NCBI GenBank assembly: GCA_017532155.1
Contig: JAFXJP010000005.1
Location: forward strand, 1-62,528
Reading direction: 5' to 3'
Length of the DNA: 62,528 nt
Origin: Clostridia bacterium
Lineage (GTDB): Bacteria; Bacillota; Clostridia; Christensenellales; Aristaeellaceae
Shown here in pieces: positions 4,473 through 61,853 of this stretch (its first letter is position 1; the number at the start of each line of letters is the position of its first letter). Made by a program: the position numbers and the translations under genes. The notes under the pieces are model-generated. The model was not told the origin of the DNA, did not search any database, and saw only the letters and a list, made by a program, of their open reading frames with translations.

Positions 4473-4509
4473 AGATCAAAGACCTCCGGTCGCAGGCACA
4501 GTTTTTTCT

Positions 4510-4518
4510 ATTATAACA
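4510..4518 (-). promoter_or_regulatory. extended -10 promoter for the LtaS-like gene
   Basis: Read on the minus strand, TGtTATAAT lies about 38 bases before the start codon. No convincing -35 box is seen. Confidence 0.5.
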
Positions 4519-4665
4519 TGCGTTGCGCCATAGCGCCAGCAAAAGTGTATGGAAGGGAATGGAAGAGTTTGCAAGAACTTCCGCAAAAAGAAGAAAGAAT
4601 GTGCACGTTGCCGAAAAATATAGATAATGAAGGTGAAAATTTGTTGCAGATGGCAAGTGTTTGGC

Positions 4666-4764: not shown

Positions 4765-6231
4765 ATGTACGACGCAATTATCATCGGCGCGGGCGTGATC
4801 GGCTGTGCTGTGGCGCAGCAGCTGGCCAAGTACAGCGGCAAAATCGCTGTGATCGACCGCATGGAAGACGTGGCTGACGGCGCCAGCAAGGCCAACAGCG
4901 GCATCGTGCACGCCGGCTTCGACGCGCATCCTGGCACTGAAAAGGCTCGCCTGAACGTAAAGGGCAGCAAGATGTACGGCAAGCTCGCGAAGGAGCTGGG
5001 CGTTCCTTATGGCCAGCCCGGCGCTCTGGTTCTGGGCTTCTCCGAAGAAGACCGTCCCACCATCGAAAAGCTGCTGGCTCAGGCCGTGGCCAACGATGTG
5101 GAAGGCTGCCGCATCATCGAGCGTGAAGAAATTCTGAAGATGGAACCCAACACCAACCCCGAGGTTGTGTGCGCGCTGTATGCGCCCACCAGCGGTCTGG
5201 TGTCTCCCTACGAAATGACCTGTGCTCTGGCTGACAGCGCTGCCGAAAACGGCGCCGAGTTCATTCTGGACAACCCCGTTCTCGAGGTTAAGCCCACCAT
5301 GGACGGCAACTGGCTGGTCATCACCGAACGCGATGAGTACAAGACCCGCGCGGTTGTCAACTGCGCCGGCATGGGCTCTGGCGTGATCCACAACATGATC
5401 TCCACCCGCAAGGTGAAGATGATCGCCCGCCGCGGCGAATACTATCTGCTGGACCACATGGCCGAGATCCCCTTCACCATGACCATGTTCCAGTGCCCCA
5501 CCAAGATGGGTAAGGGCGTTCTGGTTTCTCCCACCACCCACGGCAATACCCTCCTGGGCCCCACCGCGGATGATATCGACAACGGCTATGACGTTGCCAC
5601 CACCCGCAAAGCGCTGGACACCGTGCTTGAAAAGGTGAAGCTCACCTGGAAGAACGTCAACCTCCGCCCCGTTATCACCACCTTCTCCGGCATCCGTGCC
5701 CATGAAGAAAACGGCGACTTCATCATCGGTGAAGTTGAAGGCGCGCCCGCCGGTGCGTTCGAGGCCGTTGGCGTGGAAAGCCCCGGTCTGTCCGCCGCTC
5801 CTGCCATTGGTCAGGAACTGGGCGATCAGGTTGCCGCCTTCCTGAAGGCCGAACTGAAGACCGATTGGGTGAAGCCCACTCCCGTTCCCAAGTCCTTCCG
5901 CAACATGACCGATGAAGAGCGCCAGGCTGCTTACGAAAAGGATCCTGAATACGGCGTGCTGGTTTGCCGCTGCGAGCAGGTAACCGAAGCCGAAATCCGC
6001 GCTGCCATCCGTCGTCCCGTTGGCGCCCGCTCCATCGACGCTGTTAAGCGCCGCACCCGCGCCGGCATGGGTCGTTGCCAGGGTGGCTTCTGCAGCCCCC
6101 GCGTGCTGGAGATCCTGTGCGAAGAACTGGGCGTAAGCCCCCTGGAAATCACCAAGTGCGGCGGCGCCAGCAAGCTGCTGGTTGGTACCCTTACGCAGAT
6201 CGCAAAGGAGGCGCGCCCCGATGAAAACTGA
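4765..6231 (+). CDS. FAD-dependent oxidoreductase with BFD-type [2Fe-2S] domain, GlpA-like
   Basis: The 488-residue protein opens with a DAO-type FAD-binding fold (dinucleotide motif GAGVIGCAVA near residue 8). It ends in a BFD-like domain whose cysteines CRC (near 405) and GRCQGGFC (near 444) would bind an iron-sulfur cluster. This is the architecture of anaerobic glycerol-3-phosphate dehydrogenase subunit A and related Firmicutes dehydrogenases that oxidise a 2-hydroxy substrate. The start ATG is preceded by AAAGGG. It overlaps the next gene by 11 bases, so the two are translationally coupled. Codon use is strongly C-ending, suggesting high expression. The substrate is inferred, not proven. 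Confidence 0.82.
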   Translation: MYDAIIIGAGVIGCAVAQQLAKYSGKIAVIDRMEDVADGASKANSGIVHAGFDAHPGTEKARLNVKGSKMYGKLAKELGVPYGQPGALVLGFSEEDRPTIEKLLAQAVANDVEGCRIIEREEILKMEPNTNPEVVCALYAPTSGLVSPYEMTCALADSAAENGAEFILDNPVLEVKPTMDGNWLVITERDEYKTRAVVNCAGMGSGVIHNMISTRKVKMIARRGEYYLLDHMAEIPFTMTMFQCPTKMGKGVLVSPTTHGNTLLGPTADDIDNGYDVATTRKALDTVLEKVKLTWKNVNLRPVITTFSGIRAHEENGDFIIGEVEGAPAGAFEAVGVESPGLSAAPAIGQELGDQVAAFLKAELKTDWVKPTPVPKSFRNMTDEERQAAYEKDPEYGVLVCRCEQVTEAEIRAAIRRPVGARSIDAVKRRTRAGMGRCQGGFCSPRVLEILCEELGVSPLEITKCGGASKLLVGTLTQIAKEARPDEN

Positions 6232-55930: not shown

Positions 55931-57559
55931 ATGCAATCCTGGAATGAATATTATCCGCGGCCGCAGCTGCGCCGCAATAGCTTTATATCTTTGAACGGCG
56001 AATGGCTGCTGAACGGCAGCCGCATTACGGTACCCTTCCCGCCGGAGAGCCGCGCGGCAGCGTATCAGGGCGAATTAAATGAGCTGATGAGCTACGAGCG
56101 CGCGTTTGAACTGCCCAGAGGATTTTATCAGGGACGGCAGCGCGTGATGCTGCACTTTGGCGCGGTGGATCAAAAGTGTCATGTGTATGTCAATAACCAT
56201 CTGGTTATCCGCCACGAGGGCGGCTATCTGCCCTTCAGCGCGGATATTACAGATGATCTGTGCCTGGGCGAAAATCAGCTGCGCGTGGAGGCGGAGGATA
56301 CGCTTTCGCATGACTATCCCTATGGCAAGCAGCGCAAGGATCGCGGCGGCATGTGGTACACGCCGGTATCGGGCATCTGGCAGAGCGTTTGGCTGGAGGC
56401 TGTGCCGGAAAAGCATGTGGAGAACTTGAAAATTACACCTGATATGAATGGCGTAACCTTGAATGTAAAAACCGTGCAAGAGAATTGCACGGTAACCATT
56501 GAAGGCGTGCAGCATACCATCGCAGCCAACTGTGATGTGCGCATTGCTGTGGAAAATCCGCACCTGTGGTCGCCGGAGGATCCGTATCTTTATGATCTGC
56601 GCATCACGGCGGGAGAGGATACGGTGGACAGCTATTTTGCCTTGCGCACGGTGGATATCCGCGACGTGCATGGCGTGCAGCGCGTATGCCTCAACGGCAA
56701 GCCCATTTTTATGAATGGATTGCTGGATCAGGGCTATTTTGTGGAGGGCATTTATCTGCCCCAATCGCCCGAGGGCTACGCGCAGGATATAGCCAATATG
56801 CAGCAGCTGGGCTTTAATCTTTTGCGCAAGCATATCAAGATTGAGCCGGAAATCTTCTATTATGAGTGCGACCGGCGCGGCATGCTGGTGATGCAGGATA
56901 TGGTCAACAGCGGGGATTACAGCTTTTTCCGTGATACGGCGCTGCCCACAGTGGGCTTCAAGTGGTGGCCCGATCATCGGAGGGGCGGTCAGGCGCGCAA
57001 AGCTTTCTTTGAACAGCATTGCCGCGATACCATTGCGCATCTGCACAATCATCCCTGCGTGATTGCCTACACCATTTTCAACGAGGGCTGGGGGCAGTAT
57101 GATTCCGACCGCATCTATAAAATGCTCAAGGAGATGGATCCCACCCGTTTTTATGATTCCACCTCGGGTTGGTTCCATAAAAAACACAGCGATGTGGACA
57201 GCCTGCACATTTATTTCCGCAACAAGGTGCTTAAGCCCGGGAAGCGTCCCATGCTGCTGAGCGAGTGCGGCGGTTACACCCGCGCCATTGAAGGGCATAT
57301 GTTTGTGGGGGAGGGTAACTACGGATATGGCAAGACGGACAGCGAGGAAGCGCTGACCGAAAAAATCGAAGAAATGTACGATGTGATGGTTTTCCCGGCC
57401 ATCGAAAAGGGGCTGTGCGGCGTAATTTATACGCAGGTGTCCGATGTGGAGGATGAGATCAACGGCCTGTATACCTTTGATCGGGCGGTGTGCAAGGTGA
57501 ACGGGGCGCGCATGCGGGCAATCGCGGAAAAAATCAAGCGGATAATTACCAAAGAATGA
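55931..57559 (+). CDS. Glycoside hydrolase family 2 enzyme
   Basis: The 542-residue enzyme has the GH2 layout: sugar-binding jelly-roll (to about 160, with FGAVDQKCHVYVNN), a short Ig-like domain, then a catalytic barrel. The acid/base Glu is in IFNEGWGQ (near 380) and the probable nucleophile Glu is in LLSECGG (near 437). It is short for a beta-galactosidase and has no signal peptide, so it likely acts on imported oligosaccharides. GGAGG precedes the ATG by eight bases. No intrinsic terminator is evident in 57560-57662, which holds only a CATGAAA/TTTCATG palindrome and a TAACCTG direct repeat. Confidence 0.88.
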   Translation: MQSWNEYYPRPQLRRNSFISLNGEWLLNGSRITVPFPPESRAAAYQGELNELMSYERAFELPRGFYQGRQRVMLHFGAVDQKCHVYVNNHLVIRHEGGYLPFSADITDDLCLGENQLRVEAEDTLSHDYPYGKQRKDRGGMWYTPVSGIWQSVWLEAVPEKHVENLKITPDMNGVTLNVKTVQENCTVTIEGVQHTIAANCDVRIAVENPHLWSPEDPYLYDLRITAGEDTVDSYFALRTVDIRDVHGVQRVCLNGKPIFMNGLLDQGYFVEGIYLPQSPEGYAQDIANMQQLGFNLLRKHIKIEPEIFYYECDRRGMLVMQDMVNSGDYSFFRDTALPTVGFKWWPDHRRGGQARKAFFEQHCRDTIAHLHNHPCVIAYTIFNEGWGQYDSDRIYKMLKEMDPTRFYDSTSGWFHKKHSDVDSLHIYFRNKVLKPGKRPMLLSECGGYTRAIEGHMFVGEGNYGYGKTDSEEALTEKIEEMYDVMVFPAIEKGLCGVIYTQVSDVEDEINGLYTFDRAVCKVNGARMRAIAEKIKRIITKE

Positions 57560-57662
57560 CAAATAAAATGCATGAAAACTTTCATGAGTAACCTGTATGT
57601 AACCTGATTTGTCTTAAATTGGGATTTATAATACCGTTTTTAACAAATAAGTGAAAATGTGG

Positions 57663-57691
57663 TTGACAATATTGTTGCAATCGTGTATGAT
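57663..57691 (+). promoter_or_regulatory. SigA-type promoter for the c-di-GMP riboswitch operon
   Basis: TTGACA (57663-57668), exactly 17 bases, then TATGAT (57686-57691). The spacer holds a palindrome ACAATATTGT that could be an operator. Confidence 0.85.
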
Positions 57692-57715
57692 ATGCATGGA
57701 TGGGCAGTGCCGATC

Positions 57716-57798
57716 CCCACGTTGAGGCAAAACCTGTGAAAACGGGCGACGCGAAGCTACAGGGCCTAAGGCAAAAGCTATGGCAGCCAGCTACCGAA
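57716..57798 (+). ncRNA. Cyclic di-GMP-I (GEMM-I) riboswitch
   Basis: The segment carries the GEMM-I core in order: GAGGCAAAACC, a GAAA-capped hairpin (CCTGT/ACGGG), CGACGCGAAGCTAC, GGGCCTAAGGC and GGCAGCCAGCTACCG. These match the conserved bases of the class I c-di-GMP aptamer, including the tetraloop and its receptor side. It begins about 25 bases after the promoter and ends about 130 bases before the first gene. The expression platform is unclear: there are inverted repeats in 57845-57925, and TCCAA/TTGGGA pairing (57900-57921) could mask the GGGAGG ribosome site, which suggests control of translation, but I see no clear terminator hairpin. Confidence 0.9.
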
Positions 57799-57931
57799 TA
57801 CCGATTACCGACATGTGAACGCACGCCGGCACATTGGCCGCATGGGGCTGCTGTCCTTCTGGGAAAGGTGCAGCTCCTTTGGTGCGCTTTTCCAATACTT
57901 TCCAAACTGGATCGATTGGGAGGAATTTTGT

Positions 57932-58288
57932 ATGAAGAAGATGCTCTGCCTGCTGCTGATGATGGTGGCGCTGATGCTGCTGTGCTGCACGGCTGCGATG
58001 GCTGAAACTGCCAGCGAAAAGGAAATGGACAAGCTCTACCAGATGGTCGACCAGGCCAACGAGAAGATCGAAGGCTATGTAGAGCATGCGCAGGCCACGG
58101 AAAAGAATGACATTGACTGGCTGCAGGAAAAGGTAGACAAGGTTGTCACGCGCGTTGTGGAATACGGCGAGAAGATCGGCGTAACCGTTGAATGCGAAAT
58201 GGTCGACTATGAAATCGACGGCCAGATCGTGTCGATTGATCCGCTGAAGGTGATCAATTCGGACAAGGATAACGAAAACAAAGAATAA
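57932..58288 (+). CDS. Small secreted protein, first of a paralogous pair under the riboswitch
   Basis: The 118-residue protein has a signal peptide (MKKMLCLLLMMVALMLL, cut near AMA-ET). The mature protein is a helical segment and a C-terminal motif TVECEMVDYEIDGQIVSIDP, then LKVIN. The next gene's product shares that C-terminal motif. I recognise no known family; it may be a surface or matrix component. GGGAGG eight bases before the ATG fixes the start; the open frame continues upstream through the riboswitch leader. Confidence 0.75.
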   Translation: MKKMLCLLLMMVALMLLCCTAAMAETASEKEMDKLYQMVDQANEKIEGYVEHAQATEKNDIDWLQEKVDKVVTRVVEYGEKIGVTVECEMVDYEIDGQIVSIDPLKVINSDKDNENKE

Positions 58289-58310
58289 TCAATCTGACAG
58301 CTGATTGATT
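58287..58310 (+). other. inverted repeat between the two secreted-protein genes
   Basis: AATCAATC and GATTGATT are perfect eight-base arms around TGACAGCT. They begin in the first gene's stop codon and end right before the GGAGGG ribosome site of the second, so the weak stem could tune translation. Confidence 0.4.
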
Positions 58311-58322
58311 GGAGGGATACCT

Positions 58323-58697
58323 ATGAAGAACATGCTCCGTAAACTGCTGCTTGTATGCCTGGTGCTGATGCTGCTGTGCTCTTCCGCCATGGCTTGCACT
58401 TCTGGCGAGGCCATGCAGAATAAGCTGAACAACACGCTGTATGCCATGGTTGAGGCTGCCAATGTTTCTGTAAAAGCGCAGGTGCTGATCGCGCAGGCCA
58501 CGCCCTATAACGACGTTGCCTGGCTGCTGGCCAGCACGCAGGCCACAGTGGCGCCCGTCTTTGCCTATGCAAAGAAGATCGGCGCGACGGTCGAATGCGA
58601 ATATAAGTATTACTGGGTAGATGGCCAGTGGGTTGCCATTGATCCGCTGAAGGTGATCAACGTAAGAAAAACGCTTGATCTCATGTACGATGACTGA
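58323..58697 (+). CDS. Small secreted protein, second of the paralogous pair
   Basis: The 124-residue protein has a signal peptide (MKNMLRKLLLVCLVLMLLCSS, cut near AMA-CT), a helical middle with VEAANVSVKAQVLIAQATP and the shared C-terminal motif KKIGATVECEYKYYWVDGQ, then VAIDPLKVIN. The Cys after the signal region might be a lipobox remnant. GGAGGG lies six bases before the ATG. Its end overlaps the nucleotidyltransferase gene by eight bases. Confidence 0.75.
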   Translation: MKNMLRKLLLVCLVLMLLCSSAMACTSGEAMQNKLNNTLYAMVEAANVSVKAQVLIAQATPYNDVAWLLASTQATVAPVFAYAKKIGATVECEYKYYWVDGQWVAIDPLKVINVRKTLDLMYDD

Positions 58698-59040
58698 TGC
58701 AAAGTGGCTCCGCGCTTTTGCGGAGAATGACAGCGTCCGGCAGCAAGTGATTGCCTGTTTGGACGCTGTTTGTGCGTATCCGGGCGTTGCGCGCGTGATG
58801 GTCTTTGGCTCTTATGCCAAGGGCACGCAGACGGCGGGCAGCGATCTGGATGTGGCAGCTTTTATGAGCGCGGCGGCGGGAGAAAACCTGCTGCCCCCTT
58901 TTCGCGCTCTGACAAAAATCTGCCTGCAGGCGCCTATTGAAATTCAGGTACAGGTGTTTTCCGAGACGGAGCTTTTATTCCCCTGCGGAATTATTGAAGA
59001 GATTGTCAAATACGGCGTAGTATACGAAAAAAACACGTAA
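58690..59040 (+). CDS. MNT-type minimal nucleotidyltransferase
   Basis: The 116-residue protein has the nucleotidyltransferase active-site motif GSYAKGTQTAGSDLDV (near residue 38), an exact GSx10DxD as in MntA antitoxins, which transfer AMP to a HEPN partner. The start ATG lies within the end of the secreted-protein gene and has no clear ribosome site, so translation is probably coupled. Its usual HEPN partner is not adjacent but lies one gene downstream. Alternative roles in nucleotide transfer to other targets are possible. Confidence 0.85.
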   Translation: MTDAKWLRAFAENDSVRQQVIACLDAVCAYPGVARVMVFGSYAKGTQTAGSDLDVAAFMSAAAGENLLPPFRALTKICLQAPIEIQVQVFSETELLFPCGIIEEIVKYGVVYEKNT

Positions 59041-59050
59041 GAGGTAGTGC

Positions 59051-59977
59051 ATGGAAGGCTTTTACGCGCGGCGTGCGGGCGACGGCAGCCTGCAGGGCAT
59101 GGCAGACGGGCTGCTGCTGCTGGCCAAACACAAAAATCTGGAGATTATGACCCAGCGTGTGGATAAAAATGCCACGGTCTGGCTCACGCCCGGCACGGAC
59201 GAAGATGATTTTGAGTTTTTCTTTGTGCATGAGGGTGAAATGGAAATTGATATCGACGGCGAGAAAGTTTCTTTCCGCGCGGGCGATTCTTTCTATATCC
59301 ACCGGCTGAAGAACAATACGCTGATGCGCTGCACGCAGTCGGCCTTGATATTGTATGTGTCCACCTGCCCGGTGTTTTCCGGCGAGGCTTATTGGCAGGA
59401 GGAGCTGCGCGGGATGCTGCGCCGTATCAATGAAAAGGATCATTACACCCGCCGCCATTCGCGGGCGGTGATGCGCTATGCCGTGCGGCTGTATGAGGAG
59501 CTCAAGGAGTATTGCCCGGGCCTGACGCTGGAAGACTATGTGCTGGGCGCGCTGTTCCATGACGTTGGCAAGTGCAATGTGCCGGGCGAGATTCTGCGCA
59601 AGAAGGATCGCCTGACTAATGACGAATACCGCGTGATCATGCATCATCCGGTAGACAGCGGCCGTATTCTGGAGCCCATTTACGGCAAGCGCATTGCGGA
59701 ACTGGCGCGCACGCATCACGAGCGCATGGACGGCAGCGGCTATCCCTGCGGCCTGATGGGTGAGGAAATCCCCTTTGAGGCGCGTATTCTGGCGGTGGCA
59801 GATGTGTTTGACGCAATGACCAGCGACCGCGGCTACAACAAGGTAAAAAGCTTTGAGGAAGCCGCGCAGGAATTGTATGACCTGGACCGTATATTCGACC
59901 GCCGTGTGACGGAAACACTGGTGCGCCTGGTGCAGGCCGGTGAAATTACCGTGGCGGAGGATGAAGAAGATGAATAA
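59051..59977 (+). CDS. Cupin plus HD-GYP domain protein, predicted c-di-GMP phosphodiesterase
   Basis: The 308-residue protein has an N-terminal cupin barrel (about 45-110, with FVHEGEMEIDIDGEKVSFRAGD) that lacks the usual metal-binding His pair. A full HD-GYP domain follows: LFHDVGKCNVPGEI near 178, MHHPVDSGRIL near 197, and HHERMDGSGYPCGLMGEE near 221. HD-GYP proteins hydrolyse c-di-GMP to pGpG or GMP. The cupin may sense a small molecule. It sits 10 bases after the MNT gene and overlaps the HEPN gene by eight bases, in an operon led by a c-di-GMP riboswitch, which implies feedback. Confidence 0.9.
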   Translation: MEGFYARRAGDGSLQGMADGLLLLAKHKNLEIMTQRVDKNATVWLTPGTDEDDFEFFFVHEGEMEIDIDGEKVSFRAGDSFYIHRLKNNTLMRCTQSALILYVSTCPVFSGEAYWQEELRGMLRRINEKDHYTRRHSRAVMRYAVRLYEELKEYCPGLTLEDYVLGALFHDVGKCNVPGEILRKKDRLTNDEYRVIMHHPVDSGRILEPIYGKRIAELARTHHERMDGSGYPCGLMGEEIPFEARILAVADVFDAMTSDRGYNKVKSFEEAAQELYDLDRIFDRRVTETLVRLVQAGEITVAEDEEDE

Positions 59978-60431
59978 AGCGCAAAAATATGGCTACTGGC
60001 TGATGCTTTCGGACTATGATCTGGGCACGATTGACTGCCTCATTCAGGGCGAGCGCTGGGTATATGTGGCGTATCTGTGCCAGCAGGCGGTGGAGCGCCA
60101 GCTCAAGGGCATGTACGTGTATTACATGGGCGCCGAAGCGCCCAAGACGCATAACCTGAACTTCCTGTTTAAAAAGGTGACAGACAGCGAAAAATTCCAG
60201 CAGGAGGCGGATATGGAGCGCTTTGCCGCGCGTCGCGCCGAGGCGGAGGATTTCCTGATTGACCTGATGTTCTATTACATGTCGGATTATCCCTTCTCCT
60301 ACAAGAATATTTCCTCGCGCTTTGTCGGGCGCGAGCTGGCGCTGCAGTTGTACGAAAATGCCAAGAAGGCTGTTGCCTGGCTGCGCTCCTTCCAGCCGGA
60401 GACAGCAATCCCCAGGATGGACGAAAAGTGA
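59970..60431 (+). CDS. HEPN domain protein
   Basis: The 153-residue helical protein has the HEPN signature CQQAVERQLKGMYVYYMG (near 28), PKTHNLNFLFKKV (near 50) and a SDYPFSYKNIS segment near 98, as in nucleotidyltransferase-associated HEPN proteins. I do not see a clear Rx4-6H RNase motif, so toxicity is uncertain. CGGAGG lies nine bases before the ATG at 59970. It ends the operon just before a terminator. Confidence 0.85.
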   Translation: MNKAQKYGYWLMLSDYDLGTIDCLIQGERWVYVAYLCQQAVERQLKGMYVYYMGAEAPKTHNLNFLFKKVTDSEKFQQEADMERFAARRAEAEDFLIDLMFYYMSDYPFSYKNISSRFVGRELALQLYENAKKAVAWLRSFQPETAIPRMDEK

Positions 60432-60442
60432 AAATCAGCATA

Positions 60443-60472
60443 AAAAATCCCCTCTGTTTTGAGGGGATTTTT
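60443..60472 (+). terminator. intrinsic terminator of the c-di-GMP riboswitch operon
   Basis: AAAAATCCCCTC pairs with GAGGGGATTTTT around a six-base loop. Confidence 0.93.
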
Positions 60473-60516
60473 GGTGAACATTTATGCTTGAATTTTGTAA
60501 TCAAGAGGAGTAAGAT

Positions 60517-60555
60517 ATGGCCTGTTGCGAAAAAATACGCAGCGATTCTATTTGA
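60517..60555 (+). CDS. Possible 12-residue leader peptide upstream of the antiporter
   Basis: An ATG preceded at six bases by AAGAGGAG opens a 13-codon frame (MACCEKIRSDSI) that stops 17 bases before the antiporter start. Its ribosome site is stronger than the antiporter's own. It could be a translated leader that regulates the downstream gene, or a chance feature. Confidence 0.4.
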   Translation: MACCEKIRSDSI

Positions 60556-60572
60556 CAGAAGAAGGCTTTATC

Positions 60573-61853
60573 ATGGAAACTTATCTGATTTGTCTGGCGT
60601 CGGCCCTGATTGGCGGACTGATGCTGTCCCGACTGACCAAGCGTTTGAAACTTCCCGCAGTGACTGCCTATCTGATTGCCGGACTCTTGCTGGGGCCCTT
60701 TGTGCTGGGCCGGCTGAATGTTCCGGGTCTGGGTTTTCAGTCGCTGCATCAGGTGGAGCTGCTGAGCATTATTACCCAGACGGCGCTGGGCTTCATCGCT
60801 TTTACGATCGGCAATGAATTTCGCCTTTCTCAGCTGAAATCCATGGGCAGCAGCGCCATTATCATCGGTATCCTGCAGGCGCTCGTCACGACGATCGTGG
60901 TGGACGTTGTACTGATCGCGTTGCATTTCTGCTTCCCGCAGATCATCTCCATTCCTGTCGCCATTGTGCTGGGCGCCATTGCATCCGCCACGGCGCCGGC
61001 GGCCACGCTGATGGTTGTGCGCCAGTATAAGGCGAAGGGTCCGCTGACCCGGCTGCTGATGCTGGTTGTGGCCATTGACGATGCGGTGGGTCTGGTGCTG
61101 TTCAGCGTATCCTTCGGCATTGCGACGGCGCTTTCTCAGGGCGAATTGAGCGTCCTGGCTGTTGTGGTGGAGCCCATTCTGGAGATCGTGCTATCTCTGA
61201 TGCTTGGCAGCCTGATGGGCTGGCTGCTCAACTGGGTGGAGCAGTTTTTCCACTCCCGCAGCAAGCGACTGACGATTTCAGTGGCGTTTGTGCTGCTGAC
61301 GGTTGGCTTGTCCAGCGTCAGCTTTGAAGTGGCCGGCCTTCACTGCGGTTTTTCGCTGCTGCTGGTGTGCATGATGACGGGTACGATCTTCTGCAATATC
61401 TGCTCCACGTCTGAGGAACTGATGGAGCGTATTGACAACTGGGTCATGCCGCTGCACGTGCTGTTCTTTGTCATTTCGGGCGCGGAGCTGGATCTGGAGA
61501 TTCTGGCGCATCCCGTGACCATCATCGTGGGCGTCATCTACATTCTGGCGCGCTCCGCCGGCAAGTATTACGGCGCGGCTGTCAGTTGCAAAATGACGGG
61601 CCAGAGCAAGGCGATTACCGACAATCTGGGCATTACGCTGCTGCCGCAGGCGGGCGTGGCGCTGGGCATGGCGATGACGGCCGCCACGCTGGAAAATGGC
61701 GCTCTGGCACGCAACGTGGTGCTGTTTGGGGTGCTGGTATACGAGCTGGTCGGCCCCACGCTGACCAAGCGCTCGCTGCTGGCGGTAGGGGAAATCCGCC
61801 CCGAAGGACGTATTAGCGCGCGTCGTCAGAATCAGCCCGAGGAAAAGAAATAA
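60573..61853 (+). CDS. CPA2 family cation:proton antiporter
   Basis: The 426-residue protein has about 12 membrane helices and the Kef/NapA-type Na_H_exchanger fold: KLPAVTAYLIAGLLLGP near 26, ATAPAATLMVVRQY near 150 and VAIDDAVGLVLF near 168 with the paired Asp residues. It lacks a TrkA-N domain. It would exchange K+ or Na+ for protons. GAAGG lies seven bases before the ATG; a frame from 60525 is unlikely. Confidence 0.88.
   Translation: METYLICLASALIGGLMLSRLTKRLKLPAVTAYLIAGLLLGPFVLGRLNVPGLGFQSLHQVELLSIITQTALGFIAFTIGNEFRLSQLKSMGSSAIIIGILQALVTTIVVDVVLIALHFCFPQIISIPVAIVLGAIASATAPAATLMVVRQYKAKGPLTRLLMLVVAIDDAVGLVLFSVSFGIATALSQGELSVLAVVVEPILEIVLSLMLGSLMGWLLNWVEQFFHSRSKRLTISVAFVLLTVGLSSVSFEVAGLHCGFSLLLVCMMTGTIFCNICSTSEELMERIDNWVMPLHVLFFVISGAELDLEILAHPVTIIVGVIYILARSAGKYYGAAVSCKMTGQSKAITDNLGITLLPQAGVALGMAMTAATLENGALARNVVLFGVLVYELVGPTLTKRSLLAVGEIRPEGRISARRQNQPEEKK

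Follow-up and report, generated by a model that had tools for sequence, protein, structure and literature searches.

A c-di-GMP-I riboswitch operon encoding a predicted phosphodiesterase and a HEPN/MNT gene pair in a gut Clostridia bacterium

Contig JAFXJP010000005.1 of assembly GCA_017532155.1, from a gut bacterium of the Aristaeellaceae (Clostridia), carries at positions 57663 to 60472 a riboswitch operon that is real, recurs in related genomes, and encodes its own predicted phosphodiesterase for the second messenger that the riboswitch is predicted to sense, cyclic di-GMP (c-di-GMP). Coordinates refer to the window, that is, the whole stretch of 62,528 nucleotides that was analysed; the assembly to which it belongs amounts to 2.02 Mb in 62 contigs and is 82.5% complete. 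Loci elsewhere are designated by L numbers. The features of the operon are as follows:

57663..57691, + strand, promoter TTGACA-17-TATGAT, with 11 of 12 consensus bases
57716..57798, + strand, c-di-GMP-I (GEMM-I) riboswitch aptamer, RF01051, by the Rfam covariance model
57839..57886, + strand, terminator-like hairpin (putative expression platform), then CUUUUCC; the best hairpin plus T-tract
57918..57923, + strand, Shine-Dalgarno-like GGGAGG of sec1, from the sequence
57932..58288, + strand, small, putatively exported protein 1 (sec1, 118 aa), with hydrophobic N-terminus and conserved tail IDGQxVxIDPL
58323..58697, + strand, small, putatively exported protein 2 (sec2, 124 aa), a sec1 paralogue with 45% identity to it
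58690..59040, + strand, minimal nucleotidyltransferase (MNT) with GSx10DxD, PF01909 at 7e-9
59051..59977, + strand, cupin plus HD-GYP protein, predicted c-di-GMP phosphodiesterase, PF07883 at 3e-8 and PF13487 at 2e-32
59961 or 59970 (alternative starts)..60431, + strand, HEPN protein, PF05168 at 2.4e-9
60443..60473, + strand, operon terminator hairpin with T-run, 60451-60466 in the scan, the wider A-T stem by eye

The gene order is sec1, sec2, MNT, cupin-HD-GYP and HEPN, followed by the terminator, so that the MNT and HEPN genes stand on either side of the HD-GYP gene. Successive genes are separated by a 34-base gap, an 8-base overlap, a 10-base gap and an overlap of 8 or 17 bases, a spacing from which the five genes are probably co-transcribed. 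The promoter is the top of seven sites in 57500-60600, where shuffles lead one to expect 2.9, and ends 24 bases before the aptamer. The aptamer scores 65 bits with RF01051 over the full model (1-87), far above the gathering score of 35; nothing else in the 62.5 kb window reaches the gathering score of an Rfam family. The original prediction, made from the letters and reading frames of this stretch, had described just such a unit: a consensus promoter, a GEMM-I aptamer, five closely packed or overlapping genes, the fourth with an HD-GYP domain, and a terminator at the end. All of these parts were borne out. The identities of MNT and HEPN, and the terminator-like hairpin within the leader, are additions to that prediction. 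The base composition of the operon (G+C 0.544, against 0.564 for the window, with a standard deviation of 0.020 for 2.5 kb pieces) gives no sign of foreign origin when compared with 2.5 kb pieces of the window.

The cupin-HD-GYP protein is the centre of the argument. Its HD-GYP histidines and aspartates (H136, H170-D171, H199, H222-H223 and D251) do not vary among the 11 aligned sequences, those of the window and ten relatives, and neither does the DG.GYP stretch except at D227, which is N in L088; the pattern of metal ligands and GYP motif used here is the usual one of the family. By sequence the closest solved chains are 5z7c, 4mcw and 4r8z, with E values of 1e-15 to 1e-24 over the HD domain. 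The likeness to these structures lies over that domain, and the operon protein differs from them in its N-terminal cupin; the solved proteins carry other input domains. Through the cupin a small molecule might act as a second input. That the protein hydrolyses c-di-GMP is predicted, and two features argue for c-di-GMP as the substrate, the type of the aptamer and the form of the single GGDEF protein detected in the assembly.

As to the aptamer, residues G20, A47 and C92 of the Vc2 aptamer are given as important (PMC11218506). The position of G20 is occupied in the window by G57726, as read from the printed alignment. An A at position 20 marks variants of the cyclic GMP-AMP (cGAMP) type rather than the c-di-GMP type; with its G, the window aptamer is ruled out as a cGAMP-type aptamer and by its sequence probably binds c-di-GMP. 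An aptamer in L092 (1020-1110), 5' of a distant cupin-HD-GYP pair, has A where the window has G, and may have another dinucleotide as ligand.

What else does this genome have with which to make and break c-di-GMP? It holds one RF01051 match, one HD_5 domain, which is that of the operon, and one GGDEF protein (contig C16); no EAL match was found in the assembly, at its 82.5% completeness. The GGDEF protein reads GHNVGD...GGDEF, the form expected of an ordinary c-di-GMP cyclase and unlike that of Hypr enzymes, which have Ser. In the genomes of the other compared loci, 13 in number, GGDEF matches range from 2 to 34, which places the own genome at the minimal end for c-di-GMP enzymes, provided that its missing part hides none. 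With a single GGDEF and a single HD-GYP protein found, a loop through the operon may set the c-di-GMP level of the whole cell.

How widely does the arrangement recur? A search with the HD-GYP protein gave matches in 105 of the 297 genomes of the order; among the matches listed, those over both cupin and HD-GYP fall in four genomes, the own included. The exported protein was found in 17 of the 297, strongly in the same four (E 7e-18 or better) and weakly in 13 (3e-4 or worse). A scan of named genomes added seven loci; their sources are metagenome-assembled genomes from the gut of goat, sheep and roe deer, and two others. A class-wide search with an alignment of the exported protein gave matches in 11 of 391 genomes, own included; of the ten others, L091, L092 and L098 were examined, as the match in each extends into the C-terminal tail (profile E values 8e-8, 6e-7 and 7e-4), and the remaining seven, which match at the N-terminus only (3e-5 to 1e-3), were left out. 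A single-sequence tblastn search (E <= 1) refound the exported protein only in L091 of these three distant loci, so that in L092 and L098 it rests on profile, position and tail.

The resulting 14 loci were chosen by a match to either the exported protein or the cupin-HD-GYP protein, and both proteins are present at all 14. The small protein always has a hydrophobic N-terminus, from which export is predicted for sec1 and sec2, and a tail like I-D-G-Q-x-V-x-V-D-P-L, a pattern derived from these same sequences, so that its 15 of 15 is descriptive. Its gene lies just 5' of the HD-GYP gene, or of the MNT gene where there is one. The window has a tandem duplicate of this gene, whereas elsewhere a single copy was observed next to HD-GYP. 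Neither sec1 nor sec2 has a Pfam or NCBIfam model above cut-off, and comparison of the exported protein with PDB sequences gave chance-level matches only.

A GEMM-I aptamer lies 5' of the exported protein at six of the 14 loci (window, L036, L088, L089, L092 and L098). At all six the exported protein is the first gene behind the aptamer, and a promoter site of 10-12/12 precedes it, the -10 box ending 20-45 bases 5' of the aptamer. Conversely, 29 other GEMM-I loci, of 78 places in the order, were searched up to 1.5 kb downstream, several being cut by contig ends, with one HD-GYP and one GGDEF query (E <= 1e-3; EAL was not searched there). An HD-GYP match lay downstream of one of the 29, L014, which is the operon of L036 itself, and a GGDEF match occurred at one other, L030, upstream of the aptamer. 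In the genus, a full-length HD-GYP match (E <= 1e-40) was found in one of 11 genomes, the own, and the exchanger downstream of the operon was matched in seven (six besides the own, 47-58% identical); up to 1.5 kb on each side of those six exchanger loci neither the upstream gene nor any operon gene was seen. IMG/VR gave five loci, 35-39% identical over the HD-GYP domain only. At L091 (95-1264) a GGDEF gene lies immediately 5' of the genes for the exported and cupin-HD-GYP proteins, so that cyclase and phosphodiesterase are neighbours; that genome has 34 GGDEF matches.

Among the close relatives riboswitch, MNT and HEPN occur together. Among the 11 close loci, GEMM-I is present at four of four with MNT and HEPN (window, L036, L088, L089), each in the order GEMM-I, sec, MNT, HD-GYP, HEPN, and at none of the seven without these two genes (L034, L035, L083-L087; Fisher p = 0.003, uncorrected for relatedness). 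At L035 only 151 bases lie upstream on the contig, and the first base of a 12/12 promoter is 91 bases from the gene, so close that there is no space for an aptamer behind it. The distant loci go against a strict co-occurrence: L092 has GEMM-I with neither MNT nor HEPN detected, and L098 has GEMM-I without MNT, on a contig that stops after HD-GYP, so that HEPN cannot be judged there. In a tree of the HD-GYP proteins of the 14 loci the window groups with five GEMM-I-less loci (98/98), and the four GEMM-I/MNT/HEPN loci are therefore not one clade. The GEMM label, borne by 6 of the 14 rows, changes four times on this tree, at least three of the changes being forced by well-supported branches, and shows no clustering (172 of 500 shuffles were as low). 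Since leader, sec/HD-GYP interval and the region after HD-GYP are three places, the pattern is beyond the reach of a single simple insertion or deletion, but recombination that exchanged the operon as a whole could account for it. We note that L083, L084, L085 and L087 have a window-like 11/12 promoter 5' of the exported-protein gene, without an aptamer. They share bases of the promoter region with the window, which would fit a kept promoter behind which the riboswitch was gained or lost, though the shared bases are in large part simply those of the promoter consensus.

MNT and HEPN make up a toxin-antitoxin-like pair. The GSx10DxD motif is present in the MNT of all four loci, and HEPN is the most conserved of the three proteins, with 59-64% identity to the window protein in L036, L088 and L089, where MNT reaches 41-45% and HD-GYP 40-49%. 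A classical type VII HepT/MntA toxin (class I) is out: the RX4HXY motif of its HEPN protein is lacking, there being no Rx4-6H in HEPN at any of the four loci, and the MntA model gives 2.4e-8 on the window MNT, below that model's cut-off. Modules of class II, with PF05168 and PF01909, are described with these same motif traits, GSx10DxD in MNT and HEPN without Rx4-6H, their toxin-antitoxin status being left open in the part of the source cited (PMC7641770), and by family and motif the operon pair resembles this class. It differs in that the two genes, side by side in class II, are parted by the HD-GYP gene at four of four loci, with a riboswitch upstream. Relatives of HEPN were found in 11 of 391 genomes, own included; of 11 non-own loci ten were compared (L109 was omitted), and MNT is matched nearby at 10 of 10 and HD-GYP at none of the ten. 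HEPN gave nothing at 1e-3 against PDB sequences. A reading as a defence system was set aside: PADLOC assigned candidate-system nucleotidyltransferase models to MNT (PDC-S09, best 1.2e-7), a single Cas3 match to the HD-GYP protein (8e-4) and no match to HEPN.

What, then, would the riboswitch do to the genes behind it? A terminator-like hairpin lies between aptamer and sec1 in the window, and a hairpin with T-tract precedes the first gene or the next aptamer in six of six GEMM-I leaders, that of L098 being the leader of the first of its two aptamers. Its score was matched by 0 of 200 shuffles in the window, 13 in L036, 3 in L088, 0 in L089, 10 in L092 and 1 in L098. In an OFF switch the 3' strand of the aptamer must compete with the terminator. 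Pairing of this strand with the terminator 5' arm was equalled by 1 of 500 shuffles in L089 and 9 of 500 in L098. In a model of the growing window RNA the core stem of the terminator has, for RNA ending at 57877, a probability of 0.29 when free and 0.98 when the aptamer strand is withheld, and, for RNA ending at 57891, of 0.62 and 0.95. In build the leaders resemble OFF switches that work by a terminator, and we hold this sign more likely than its opposite, aided by the report that class I switches of C. difficile are uniformly OFF in reporters (PMC6200980); for the window itself the OFF sign is weakly supported. Two loci have doubled aptamers. In L098 they are in tandem (1041-1125 and 1215-1299): the first has a terminator, with an antiterminator that few shuffles equal, and the second ends 12 bases from the start of the exported-protein gene, with no space for a hairpin. 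In L089 two near-identical aptamers are divergent (4477-4561, - strand; 4825-4909, + strand), and the gene behind the minus-strand copy resembles that of a prepilin peptidase.

The reading that we favour, with moderate confidence, is that the riboswitch is an OFF switch for the phosphodiesterase of its operon, and the operon a positive-feedback latch. Transcription would start just 5' of the aptamer. At high c-di-GMP the aptamer would retain its 3' strand, the hairpin at 57839-57886 would form, and RNA polymerase would halt before sec1. At low c-di-GMP the strand would compete for the 5' arm of the hairpin and the operon would be read through, so that the two small exported proteins, MNT, the phosphodiesterase and HEPN would be made; the phosphodiesterase would lower c-di-GMP further, and the low state would be latched. 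An OFF switch on a phosphodiesterase makes a double-negative, hence positive, loop, not homeostasis. The feedback loop of the original prediction is well founded, in that the covariance-model check proposed with it came out positive by a wide margin and GEMM-I precedes this phosphodiesterase family at 6 of 14 loci; its sign is less secure, the leaders looking OFF, which makes the loop positive, and the antiterminator of the window being no better than shuffles.

Several observations weigh against the latch. The window duplex was equalled by 282 of 500 shuffles, and those of L092, L088 and L036 by 361, 115 and 92; the proper aptamer-terminator pairings rank 131st of 720 assignments. At 57893 the whole hairpin has a probability of 0.002 free and 0.085 with the aptamer strand withheld, the terminator being lost in the model because a rival hairpin completes there, and the T-tract of the window is short. 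Withholding the aptamer strand raises the terminator in six of six leaders, which is weak evidence, since withholding any competitor tends to do so. Nor does every class I leader act as an OFF switch, or respond at all: c-di-GMP raised one C. difficile gene that has a class I switch by more than 30-fold, for which the authors blame its promoter (PMC6200980), and Bc1 of B. thuringiensis binds c-di-GMP with expression hardly altered (PMC11218506). On the enzymatic side, the nearest solved relative, 5z7c, is named a 3'3'-cGAMP-specific phosphodiesterase, so that sequence alone leaves the substrate unfixed, and at 82.5% completeness further cyclases or phosphodiesterases may be absent from the assembly.

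Might the switch be ON instead, with c-di-GMP freeing the ribosome-binding site or breaking the terminator, so as to induce the phosphodiesterase in a homeostatic negative feedback? The ribosome-binding site in the full window leader is unpaired with a probability of 0.016 free and 0.098 with the aptamer strand withheld, a change in the right direction but a small one. Homologous aptamers are reported to act as ON or OFF switches (PMC9262584), and in B. subtilis a reporter was switched on by Bc1 (PMC11218506). Terminator-like hairpins stand 3' of the aptamer in all six leaders, however, and both leaders with significant antiterminators, L089 and L098, are wired OFF; we regard an ON switch as unlikely, if worth keeping in mind. 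A different thought is that the loop is incidental, the riboswitch mainly gating the exported proteins and HEPN/MNT, with an HD-GYP protein that acts on cGAMP or is a sensor or scaffold. The exported protein is indeed first behind every aptamer, HEPN is better conserved than HD-GYP at the same three loci, the nearest structure is a cGAMP enzyme, and the L092 aptamer has its A. The invariant catalytic residues, the G at the specificity position of the window aptamer and the likeness of the only GGDEF protein found to an ordinary c-di-GMP cyclase tell against this, and we think it improbable. Least of all do we expect a chance neighbourhood, in which GEMM-I controls sec1 and sec2 only and the downstream genes have promoters of their own. 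In its favour the region does have other promoter-like sites, though they reach only 9/12; against it, the genes overlap or lie within 34 bases of each other, and the order is kept at four of four loci with MNT and HEPN.

Beyond the latch, we offer as a speculation, and one we would not bet on, that this is a second-messenger-gated HEPN/MNT module: among the close relatives riboswitch, MNT and HEPN would be kept or lost together, at three separate positions of one operon, and the pair would work with the phosphodiesterase between them, for example through modification of HEPN or of the HD-GYP protein by MNT. On this reading a low-c-di-GMP state that is bistable would be coupled with an effector of toxin-antitoxin-like kind and with unnamed small exported proteins. 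That riboswitch and HEPN/MNT are present or absent together points to a functional link that we have not seen in the literature searched, and the operon family offers a way into the physiology of class II HEPN/MNT pairs. A GEMM-I aptamer over a phosphodiesterase, here with a single detected cyclase, is also a simple natural setting in which to test riboswitch-made bistability.

How new is the arrangement? No report of HEPN together with HD-GYP, nor one that brings together riboswitch, c-di-GMP, phosphodiesterase gene and positive feedback, was found in the literature searched. The freshest elements are the joint occurrence of riboswitch and HEPN/MNT, and the unnamed exported protein that accompanies cupin-HD-GYP at every locus examined. 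Among the published passages drawn on here, c-di-GMP riboswitches are said rarely to control c-di-GMP enzymes (PMC6366702), and many GEMM-associated genes are said to be tied to c-di-GMP production, degradation or signalling (PMC7266159); by the latter statement the coupling of riboswitch and enzyme as such is not new, and that of GEMM-I with a phosphodiesterase is unusual but not unheard of. A precedent for direction is CD630_07570 of C. difficile, a GGDEF-EAL phosphodiesterase whose transcript is down 5.1-fold at raised c-di-GMP (PMC6200980); it differs in being EAL and not HD-GYP, and the source passages assign no riboswitch to it. The closest parallel for the leader is Cd1, before flgB in C. 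difficile, with an aptamer of the same family, RF01051, and a terminator-type leader (PMC6200980; PMC6366702). What sets the present operon apart from Cd1-type class I switches is that the predicted c-di-GMP phosphodiesterase is encoded in the operon itself.

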